A DNA stretch of 55,380 bases from Candidatus Gastranaerophilales bacterium. Lineage in GTDB: Bacteria; Cyanobacteriota; Vampirovibrionia; Gastranaerophilales; Gastranaerophilaceae. The stretch lies in assembly GCA_944323135.1 (NCBI GenBank), contig CALURI010000014.1, positions 1 through 55,380 of the forward strand. The letters are read 5' to 3'. Within the stretch, counting starts at the first letter, position 1. Each line of letters begins with the position of its first letter. Both the position numbers and the translations under genes were made by a program. The notes beneath the pieces are model-generated. The model saw only the letters and a list, made by a program, of their open reading frames with translations, made no database searches and was not told where the DNA came from. Of this stretch, positions 8,446 to 12,292 are shown piece after piece.

Positions 8446-9810
8446 TTAAGCCTCTTGGAATTTTTTCACTCCTTCTTTAATCTCAACAGCATCAACTCCA
8501 AGTTGTTCCAAAGCCTTCATCGCAAGAGAATCAGGCTCTGTTGTCAAAGCTAAAAGCATATGTGCCGATTCAATTTTTTCTTTATTATCTTTTTTCGCAA
8601 GTACCCAAGCTGTTTCCAGAACTCGTTTTGCTCGTTTGGTAAAAATAATCTCTCTATCATAATATTCATTACCAAAACCTATCATGTTTTCAACAATTGC
8701 TCTAGCATCTTTCATTGTAATTTCTAATTCAGCAAGAACTTGTCCGCCAATACCTGTGCCTTCGCCAATAATTCCGAGAAGAAACATCTCTGTCCCGACA
8801 ATATTACGTCCTAATCGTCTTGCTTCTTCTTTAGCAAGCCTTAGAATTGTTAAAGTTTCAGGCATTTGCTTTTCAATAGGTTTGATAATACTATGTGCAA
8901 GATCATTATCCTGAATTTTTAATTCTTTTAATATTTCGTATGCAATCCCTCGTTTTGTTTTTAAAAGCCCCAGAACAATGTGTTCCGGTAAAACAACTGA
9001 AGATCCGAGTTCTTTTGCTGTTTGTAACGCAATATTCATTGTTGTAAATGCATTTGGCGTAAAGATAATTTGACGGCCTTCATACTCTGCTTGTCTTGAT
9101 TGTATTTTTGCAAGTTTTTCTTCAAAATTTTCACTTGTAACACCATATTTAGCAAATATTTTAGTAAGTTCAGAGTCCTTATCTTCAAGAATTGAAGAAA
9201 TTATCTGCTCAGTACCAAGTATTTCATAATTAGATGTTGATAATTTAGCTACGGCACGTTCAAAAACTTGTTCTGATTCTTTACTGTTAAAGATGTTATC
9301 TGTTTCTTTTGCTTTATTTTCTTCATTAGATTTATCTTCATCTATTTCTGGATGATAAAGACGTTTTATTTTTTTTTGTACAAGTTTTTCAAGAAGTGTT
9401 TTTGATTTATAGATATCAAAATTTAAATCTTCAAGAATTCTTACATTATTTGATTTTTTTTCTGAAATTACGGAAAGGAATAGATGTTCATATAAAATTG
9501 TTTGGTGCCCTGATTTGTTTGCTAAATCGAGAGTCTTTTTCAAAATTTCTTTATATTCATTATCAAACGGCAGGTTTGCCGGTTGAATATTTGTGCTAAC
9601 AGCTAAAGGTATATATTTTTTTATTTCTTCCTCAAGTTTTTCATGAGTAATGTCATAAGATTTAAATATTTTAAGTGAAATACCTTTTGCTTCATCAAAA
9701 AGTGCAAGCAATAGATGCTCCGGAGCTACTTTTGCTGCTCCGGTATCTTTTGCAAGCTTTTGTGATGCACTTACTACATTTATTGCTTTTTCCGTAAATC
9801 TTTCAAACAA
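8446..9810 (-). CDS. Clp N-domain repeat protein without AAA+ motor
   Basis: This 454-aa protein is built almost entirely from Clp N-terminal repeats. I count six half-repeats, i.e. three Clp N-domains, marked by EHLLLALF (near 31), EHLFLSVI (near 107), a TEQIISSIL segment (near 200), EHIVLGLL (near 275), TEMFLLGII (near 343) and AHMLLALT (near 420). Full ClpC/ClpA has one such domain followed by two AAA+ modules. Here there is no Walker A or B at all, and the frame ends naturally without a downstream ATPase. A likely role is adaptor or substrate-holding factor for a Clp protease, by analogy with plant ClpT and the N-domain of ClpC; this is inference. It starts at TTG with GAGGAA upstream and abuts tilS. 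Confidence 0.85.
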   Translation of the reverse strand: MFERFTEKAINVVSASQKLAKDTGAAKVAPEHLLLALFDEAKGISLKIFKSYDITHEKLEEEIKKYIPLAVSTNIQPANLPFDNEYKEILKKTLDLANKSGHQTILYEHLFLSVISEKKSNNVRILEDLNFDIYKSKTLLEKLVQKKIKRLYHPEIDEDKSNEENKAKETDNIFNSKESEQVFERAVAKLSTSNYEILGTEQIISSILEDKDSELTKIFAKYGVTSENFEEKLAKIQSRQAEYEGRQIIFTPNAFTTMNIALQTAKELGSSVVLPEHIVLGLLKTKRGIAYEILKELKIQDNDLAHSIIKPIEKQMPETLTILRLAKEEARRLGRNIVGTEMFLLGIIGEGTGIGGQVLAELEITMKDARAIVENMIGFGNEYYDREIIFTKRAKRVLETAWVLAKKDNKEKIESAHMLLALTTEPDSLAMKALEQLGVDAVEIKEGVKKFQEA

Positions 9811-10113: not shown

Positions 10114-10515
10114 TTAGCATCTTGCAAGATACTGTTCAAGTATAATACAAGCACTTTCAATATCAACCAGTCCTTTGTTTTTTCTGAAATCTATTTTTTT
10201 TGAACGTAAATTCTCTTCTGCAGTGTCTGATGTAAGCCTTTCATCTTCAAAAATTATTTCAATATTTTGAATTTTTGATGCAAAATCTTTACAATCTTTA
10301 CCTTGATTGCCGAGTGTTCCGTCCATATTATACGGGATTCCGACTACGACTTTTTTTACATTATTTTCTTTTATTATTTTATTTATTTCTTCTAATGCTT
10401 TGTTTTCAGGCTCTCTTGGAATGCAAGAATGACCTTTTGCTAACACTAAAAGATAATCGCTTAGTGCAACTCCGATTCTTTTGGTTCCAATATCAAGTGC
10501 CATTACTTTATACAT
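10114..10515 (-). CDS. ruvX: RuvX/YqgF, putative pre-16S rRNA nuclease
   Basis: This is an RNase H-fold protein implicated in the maturation of the 16S rRNA 5' end. It has the expected motifs MALDIGTKRIGVALSD (first Asp), VVVGIPYNMDGTLG, FEDERLTS and a C-terminal DIESACIILEQYL. I start it at the ATG at 10515, which overlaps the upstream stop codon as TAATG and gives 133 aa, close to family length. An in-frame start 12 bases upstream is possible. Translational coupling to the upstream gene is likely. Confidence 0.92.
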   Translation of the reverse strand: MYKVMALDIGTKRIGVALSDYLLVLAKGHSCIPREPENKALEEINKIIKENNVKKVVVGIPYNMDGTLGNQGKDCKDFASKIQNIEIIFEDERLTSDTAEENLRSKKIDFRKNKGLVDIESACIILEQYLARC

Positions 10516-12029
10516 TATTTTACCCACATGTCTTCTATATCTTTGATACGTTCATTATTTTGTTGTGCAAAATAATATTCGTATATGCTTTTTCGTAATA
10601 TATTTTTGAATAATTCTCTTATTAATTTTTTATCATTATATAAGTAATATAAATTTTGTGCAGCTTTTTCATCACCTGACAGATGCTTAAGCATAGAGCA
10701 AGTTAATATTCTGTTTGTCCAAACTCTGTATTCTTCAGGGAAAAATACTTTTTCAAGATTTTCATCAATATATTTTTCAAAGTCTTTAGATGGTATTAAA
10801 TCAATATTTTTTATAAATTCTTCAAATTCATCACTATATGTGCTGTTTAAAAACCAATAGTCAGTGAAGTCATATTTTAAAACTTTCTCAAATTCTTCTT
10901 CTGAAAGCTTTTTTATATTGTAATTAAGTTTTGGTTGTTTAGATTCGATGTCGGCAAGTAAATTTCGCCAGCAGACATATTCGTATGGAATAATATGGTT
11001 AGACAATTTTTCTGCTTTTTCAAGAATCGCTTTTAATATTTCGGGCTCAAGATCAAGTGCTCTTTGACCTCTATAAAATCTTTCAATAATTGCATTACAT
11101 TCAAATTGCGAAATTTCGTTAAATCCAAAACAGTCTCTAATGCCTTTGTAATCGTCGATTACTATTGCTACAAATTGAACTTTACCTGTTTTGTTAAGTC
11201 TTGATATTATAACAGCTTGGTTTCCATGCCCATCAGGGTAAGTTAGACAAAATTTGTGAGGCTTTGAATCTTTTAAGATATTTTTGTAAAATTTAAGGGA
11301 ATTATCTTCTCTGATGCCTGCAAGTTTTAAAGTGGAAAGATTTTTTTTAATCGCAGGGCTGAGACTTTCATCAACAAAAGCTAAAGCGCTATTTAGAGCA
11401 TGGTATGCGAGCTGGGATTTAGAATTACCTAATATTTCCAGTGCAGTTTTCCCTGTTTCTGTATATGGCATTGACAAAAATACCGGTATAAGCATGTTTG
11501 CCAGTTCATCTTTGTCATAATCATCTCCTAATGATTTTAAAAGAATAATTCTGTCATTTTCATCAAGAGAGCTTAAAAAATCAAGAAAATCAATTTGAAC
11601 TTCAGGATTTGCTATTGCATTATCAAGAATTCTTTTAGTATCAGATTCTACAAGCTCGTCAGGATTTTCAAGGTATTTCCCGCATTCTTCGTATGACCAG
11701 TTTGCATCTATGTCTCTTAATAAATCAAGAGCAAAAATTTTTGCCTGATTTGAGCTCATTGAATTTTTTATTATATTCCATAGATGTTCGCTTAAATCGT
11801 AATCTTTACAGTATCTTAGAAGTAAAAATTTTAATAATGCAGTATTATGATTAGGGTTATTAATCTCTTTGAAAAGCAATTTTACAATTATTGTTTTATC
11901 TTTTTGCAAATCAAGTTTGTGAAAATGAACGGCATAATTTTCAAAATCATTAACGTCTTTCAGTGTGTCAAAGATTTTGTTGATTTCTGCTTTTATTTCA
12001 AATGGATTTAGCCCGTTAATATCCGTCAT
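10515..12029 (-). CDS. Large alpha-helical protein, possibly HEAT-like, unknown function
   Basis: This 504-aa protein has no signal peptide or membrane span. The N-terminal half (about 60-240) is made of helical pairs reminiscent of HEAT/PBS-lyase repeats. The C-terminal half contains a conserved-looking segment ([18 protein letters not shown], then [17 protein letters not shown]) that I cannot assign. The start overlaps the upstream stop as ATGA, so it is translationally coupled to the ClpX zinc-finger gene, and its own stop overlaps ruvX. That arrangement suggests a joint role with the Clp-like partners, but nothing in the sequence proves it. Confidence 0.6.
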
Positions 12030-12292
12030 TTACGTGCCTTCCCCCAGAAAGCATCAAGTATTGCTTGTGCTTCTGCTGACGGCATTCTGTCATTCAAAAT
12101 CAGATATTGGACAGCAATCATGGCACATTCTGAACATATATTAACTCCAGGACCCTGTACCATTTTTAAAACTTGCGTGTTAGGTCTGCCGCAAAAACTG
12201 CAATAAACTAGATCATCATTTTTTTGTTCTTGTTTATTTTCTGATGCTTTTTCCCGTTTTGCTCCTAATTTAACAACTTTGTCTTTAGACAT
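12026..12292 (-). CDS. Stand-alone ClpX-type zinc-finger protein
   Basis: This 88-aa protein has a basic, disordered N-terminus followed by a ClpX zinc-binding domain: CSFCGRP at residues 31-37 and CSEC at 53-56, i.e. C-x2-C-x18-C-x2-C, the spacing seen in ClpX. There is no AAA+ domain; the frame stops after a short amphipathic helix. In ClpX this domain dimerises and binds adaptors and substrates. As the first gene of the operon it has a GAGGG Shine-Dalgarno and a divergent intergenic region upstream. It probably acts as an adaptor or docking factor (inference). Confidence 0.88.

Follow-up and report, generated by a model that had tools for sequence, protein, structure and literature searches.

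Gastranaerophilales genomes encode a protein that consists of three copies of the ClpC N-domain in tandem and carries no motor. The example described here lies in a window of 55,380 nucleotides, the whole stretch of DNA analysed, from Candidatus Gastranaerophilales bacterium (contig CALURI010000014.1). Its gene occupies 8446..9810 of the minus strand, stop codon included, and its open reading frame runs from a TTG start at 9810 to 8446 and specifies a protein of 454 amino acids (aa). The composition of this triple Clp_N protein, three ClpC-type N-domain modules or six Clp_N half-repeats without AAA+ rings, is well supported by profile searches and structure prediction. Its role is a more tentative matter. 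It is proposed, with a probability of roughly 0.45, to be a trivalent version of the ClpC N-domain, free of ATPase, that would act in trans on ClpC-ClpP as a ligand buffer or hand-over factor.

The Clp_N family model PF02861 matches six stretches of the protein (E 2.4e-54 over the whole chain), in agreement with the original prediction, which had read six half-repeats from the DNA and expected three to six matches to this model. In a genome scan half-repeats 1 to 6, counted from the N- to the C-terminus, score 45.3, 30.1, 24.3, 33.8, 43.8 and 39.2 bits, and each one by itself exceeds the curated (gathering) cut-off of 20.7 bits. As a chance control, a hidden Markov model (HMM) made from ClpC N-domains only was run against the protein and 2000 shuffled copies of it; the six halves score 30.5, 14.8, 1.4, 28.9, 65.9 and 30.9 bits and the best shuffle 13.1 bits. 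Half 3, with 1.4 bits, is thus recognisable only by Pfam's broader model or by the family's own. The half-repeats share a motif of the EHLLLALF type anchored at residues 31, 108, 201, 276, 341 and 416. Six copies at intervals of 65-85 residues had been predicted; all six are there and four of the spacings (77, 75, 65 and 75) fall in that range, but the gap between the second and third copies is 93, and a literal EH is found in only three of the six, the other three being EQ, EM and AH. The near-equal spacings within modules (77, 75 and 75) fit three modules of two halves each. The 454-aa protein contains no Walker A motif (G-x4-GK[ST]), just as the predicted lack of a nucleotide site implied, and a Pfam scan of it finds no AAA family. 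The Clp_N modules account for the chain, which therefore lacks the AAA+ part of the ClpC/ClpA/ClpB unfoldases (Hsp100 class I). A weak match to the histone fold PF00808 (22.7 bits), in which no single stretch passed, was disregarded.

An AlphaFold2 model of the full chain, built with 22 sequences, has a mean predicted local distance difference test score (pLDDT) of 77.5 and a predicted template modelling score (pTM) of 0.47. It comprises 24 helices in three sets of eight, one set per module, and an extra helix of low confidence within the linker that follows module 1. Each module is modelled as two pseudo-symmetric four-helix halves, which is the Clp_N fold, and a Foldseek search of the PDB returns ClpC N-domains at the top (5gui, target TM score 0.88, root-mean-square deviation 1.1, with one module matched) and ClpC2 and ClpT2 (4y0c) lower. 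Module boundaries were set from the model and the alignment. Module 1 (residues 1-152; 9355..9810, minus strand) is made of halves 1 and 2 (Pfam matches 9610-9765 and 9379-9528), and its N-terminus, MFERFTEKAI, is near-identical to the start of ClpC (MFERFTEKAIKVI). Module 2 (residues 177-316; 8863..9282, minus strand; halves 3 and 4, matched at 9106-9231 and 8896-9030) is the furthest diverged from ClpC and adjoins module 3 with almost no linker. Module 3 (residues 317-454; 8449..8862, minus strand; halves 5 and 6, matched at 8677-8835 and 8461-8601) is 44-46% identical to the N-domain of its own genome's ClpC. The three tandem N-domains of the original prediction are therefore borne out as eight-helix bundles, but the claim that they are stacked is not: pTM is low for the whole chain and also for modules 2 and 3 predicted alone (pLDDT 82.0, pTM 0.62, the other four models being far poorer), so that the relative orientation and packing of the modules are not settled.

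The linker that joins modules 1 and 2 (residues 153-176; 9283..9354, minus strand) was delimited by pLDDT and alignment column counts and is of low confidence. Residues 157-175 have a pLDDT below 50 and the segment is apparently disordered, as judged from the model. Its sequence varies freely among orthologues except for the first three residues, His153-Pro154-Glu155 (9346..9354, minus strand), which are identical in 93 of 93 aligned orthologues from across Gastranaerophilales. The tripeptide has no counterpart in ClpC and was not found in the Obscuribacterales-type Clp_N concatemers that were checked (loci L186 and L188-L190, described below). One guess is that it serves as a docking motif.

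The gene is a conserved, near-universal single-copy core gene of Gastranaerophilales and is under strong purifying selection, the ratio of nonsynonymous to synonymous substitution rates (dN/dS) against close relatives being 0.04-0.11. A profile search of 386 genomes of the phylum at E <= 1e-53 detects it in 169, that is in 167 of the 170 genomes of the window's family and two of the three other genomes of the order, and in none of the 213 phylum genomes outside the order. One of the genomes missed at this threshold carries a fragment of the gene, and in a separate sample 13 of 15 genomes from the rest of the order, beyond the window's family, have it. The best class-level matches outside Gastranaerophilales are ClpC itself. 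A mobile or viral origin was rejected: the 27 pattern matches in viral contigs include no relative, and coverage of the query stays below 80% in every phage record. A plasmid origin was likewise rejected: the matches covering at least 80% are only about 31% identical, and their three pieces map to about 450 bases, which means that one N-domain was matched repeatedly.

The protein descended from ClpC by duplication of the N-domain and loss of the AAA+ rings. When the modules were placed in a tree together with ClpC, ClpB and a ClpB-like protein, the copies of module 1 from across the order fell into a single group, as did those of module 2 and those of module 3; the triplication is thus ancestral and older than the order's radiation. 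These groups persisted after proteins from other lineages were added. The module nearest to ClpC by path length, and the least diverged from it, is module 3. Support is modest for some of the deeper branches, and the succession of the duplications is not resolved.

A Clp_N protein without a motor is of a known kind and the three-module form is a new variant of that kind; a search limited to the open-licence literature found no paper on this protein. The N-terminal domain of ClpC (5gui, 2y1r, 5hbn) has the same fold and origin, but the window protein differs from ClpC in having no AAA+ rings, no M-domain and three modules per chain. Mycobacterial ClpC2 (8ad9, 8b9o; PMC10030653) is likewise a ClpC-type N-domain without AAA+ rings. 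It combines one Clp_N module with an unrelated dimerising N-terminal part and represses its own promoter, whereas the window protein is three modules and nothing else; as module 1 starts at residue 1, there is no room for a dimerising domain of the ClpC2 type. The plastid proteins ClpT1 and ClpT2 (4y0b, 4y0c; PMC4243950) also have an AAA-less Clp_N fold and act on Clp chaperones and protease, but they are plastid-specific, distant in sequence, without a ClpC-type N-terminus and of a single module. The literature precedent found for repeats is a single clause that mentions ClpN repeats fused to vWA as rare variants in ternary conflict systems (PMC7159879); they too are repeated, but belong to conflict operons, whereas the window protein is the product of a free-standing core gene.

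The ClpC N-domain is the site of action of adaptors, phospho-arginine (pArg) substrates and cyclic-peptide antibiotics, and strong selection maintains a trivalent, motor-free copy of it in a whole order of gut bacteria. The triple Clp_N protein, probably soluble and cytosolic, is proposed to influence the ClpC-ClpP pathway in trans. The modules would bind the ligands of the ClpC N-domain with avidity, namely adaptor proteins and, in the hydrophobic groove, segments that are unfolded or disordered, and as a holdase or buffer it would either withhold these ligands from ClpC or pass them on. The precedents of ClpC2 and ClpT1 and the mapped residues favour this ligand buffer over a regulator of ClpC, an accessory of ClpP or a sponge. 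The ClpC ancestry of the modules, the conservation of the gene and the position of related concatemers directly upstream of clpC in other members of the class also speak for it. Excess ClpC2 slows the degradation of fluorescein isothiocyanate-labelled casein (FITC-casein) by ClpC1P, apparently via casein binding, and sequesters cyclomarin (PMC10030653). The multivalent binding to substrate or to a Clp hexamer that had been suggested from the repeats is plausible, with published single-module precedents. Were the protein to titrate or deliver ClpC ligands, it would be a case in which multivalency of the N-domain in the control of Clp is genetically encoded, and a natural probe of the N-domain's range of ligands. 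What stands out is the triplication, the near-universality in one order and a predicted effect on ClpC that is readily testable.

The published functions of N-domains (PMC12583610, PMC10030653) were projected onto the three modules. The groove residue Phe80 has the equivalents F82, F250 and F390 in modules 1, 2 and 3 (20, 16 and 13 of 20 sequences). Lys85, both a contact for cyclic peptides and a stabiliser of resting-state ClpC (PMC12583610, PMC10030653), is the most specific of the mapped residues; its equivalents are K87 in module 1 (18/20) and K395 in module 3 (19/20), and it is absent from the genome's ClpB. The Glu positions of the pArg pockets (Glu32/Glu106-type) are kept in five of the six halves, as E31, E108, E201, E276 and E341. 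Several observations weigh against the ligand buffer. Module 2 lacks Lys85 and has an aromatic residue in its place, and module 3 lacks an equivalent of Thr6 and, in the window's family, of Glu106. Modules 1, 2 and 3 keep six, five and four of the seven mapped sites, and the genome's own ClpB keeps four of the seven; most of the mapped functional residues are partly structural. Random-site tests give P values of 0.013, 0.012 and 0.17 for modules 1, 2 and 3, which together with the ClpB count make the mapped-residue evidence weak. Furthermore, the gene is not adjacent to clpC. In the window's family it stands in a tight row with genes for a ClpX-type zinc finger, a 504-aa protein, RuvX, DUF1292, TilS and a phosphoribosyltransferase (Hpt), and most of the 80 loci examined in the nearest relatives retain this row, but it is missing from all 13 loci of the order's other families. 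Guilt by association within an operon was therefore rejected as functional evidence. As to a role as pArg receptor in McsB-dependent recognition of ClpC substrates, the retained Glu positions occur in ClpB too, and a search for the McsB kinase (PF00217) gave no match in the genome, yet none in the control genomes either. A model based on ClpS was dropped, as the genome has no ClpS match while five controls matched.

Instead of holding ligands, the modules could imitate the contacts that the N-domain makes with the M-domain and AAA1 in resting ClpC, and so shift the balance of resting and active assemblies in trans. Such a regulator of the ClpC ring is rather unlikely. The N-domain of Staphylococcus aureus ClpC stabilises the resting state via the pArg1/2 pockets and Lys85 (PMC12583610), and the equivalents of these contacts are largely retained (the five Glu residues, K87 and K395), but the two Glu positions of the pockets also occur in the genome's ClpB and are thus not diagnostic, and modules 2 and 3 have lost several contact residues. 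The AAA-less ClpT1 adds a precedent, as it binds ClpC2 and ClpD and stimulates the ATPase of ClpD (PMC4243950). ClpT is also the model for an accessory of the ClpP peptidase core that would control core assembly or chaperone docking, since it is an AAA-less Clp_N protein associated with the ClpP ring of plastids, organelles of cyanobacterial origin (PMC7966870). The recovery of ClpT2 (4y0c) by Foldseek and the two ClpP genes of the genome, which also encodes ClpC, ClpB, a ClpB-like protein and ClpX, are consistent with this role, but the modules fall with ClpC by sequence and tree and the role is improbable. Least probable is a sponge that would soak up cyclic-peptide antibiotics or phage proteins aimed at the N-domain of ClpC, in the manner of ClpC2 with cyclomarin (PMC10030653): the two Phe residues that hold cyclomarin correspond to F2/F82 and F174/F250, and the hosts dwell in the gut among competing bacteria and phages, but a defence sponge is expected to be patchy and fast-evolving, whereas this gene is near-universal, single-copy and slowly evolving, and its product, without ClpC2's dimerising domain, presumably lacks its autoregulation.

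AAA-less Clp_N concatemers also occur in other lineages of the phylum, as proteins of about 315-370 aa with four half-repeats (L203-L206, L208, L213) and, in a large-genome family belonging to the window's class, with four to about 14 half-repeats (L186, L188-L190). The longest of the latter has 1187 aa and ten Pfam-significant stretches. Like the triple Clp_N protein these are tandem Clp_N domains without a motor, but their module number varies from two to about seven, and in the tree their modules fall apart from modules 2 and 3 of the Gastranaerophilales protein. Several of the large-genome family's genes lie beside clpC or each other, and those of L186 and L188 are directly upstream of clpC on the same strand, an adjacency for which tandem duplication may be as good a reason as function. 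A wider extrapolation, which is doubtful, would see free-standing Clp_N concatemers as a conserved trans-acting regulatory layer over ClpC-ClpP in the phylum, with the three-module form fixed and probably essential and its His-Pro-Glu linker docking a partner.

Single Clp_N modules were met in other contexts. In the Gastranaerophilales genome G035 one is fused to a CAP12/Pycsar-type TIR domain (PF10137, 89.4 bits; L195 76-1014, plus strand), a possible anti-phage effector judging from its domains. Another is fused to a serine/threonine protein kinase (L210 630-2084, minus strand), and in the close relative G006 one is followed by hydrophobic, probably membrane-spanning segments (L194 570-1322, minus strand). 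Proteins of about 480 aa in two families of the phylum, f18 and f29, combine one Clp_N module with a P-loop AAA-like segment (e.g. GEHGVGKTAL; L198-L202). The Mycobacterium phages Myrna (gp251; NC_011273) and Phabba (NC_054714) encode Clp_N-like proteins that match the query at about 30% and are possibly decoys of the ClpC N-domain.

The zinc-finger gene of the neighbour row (window 12026-12292, minus strand) encodes a free-standing protein of 88 aa that has a C4 zinc finger of the ClpX type (PF06689, 52 bits) and no ATPase. Of the 60 genomes of the order that were sampled, 59 have a strong match to it and the remaining one a weak match, in clpX only; at E <= 1e-14 there is none outside the order among 292 genomes sampled, and five genomes of one genus are without a match. 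In the window's family just a few genes often separate it from the triple Clp_N gene; in other families the two are on different contigs. The 504-aa protein (window 10515-12029, minus strand) belongs to no Pfam family, and across the window's family its gene is a conserved neighbour of the triple Clp_N gene.
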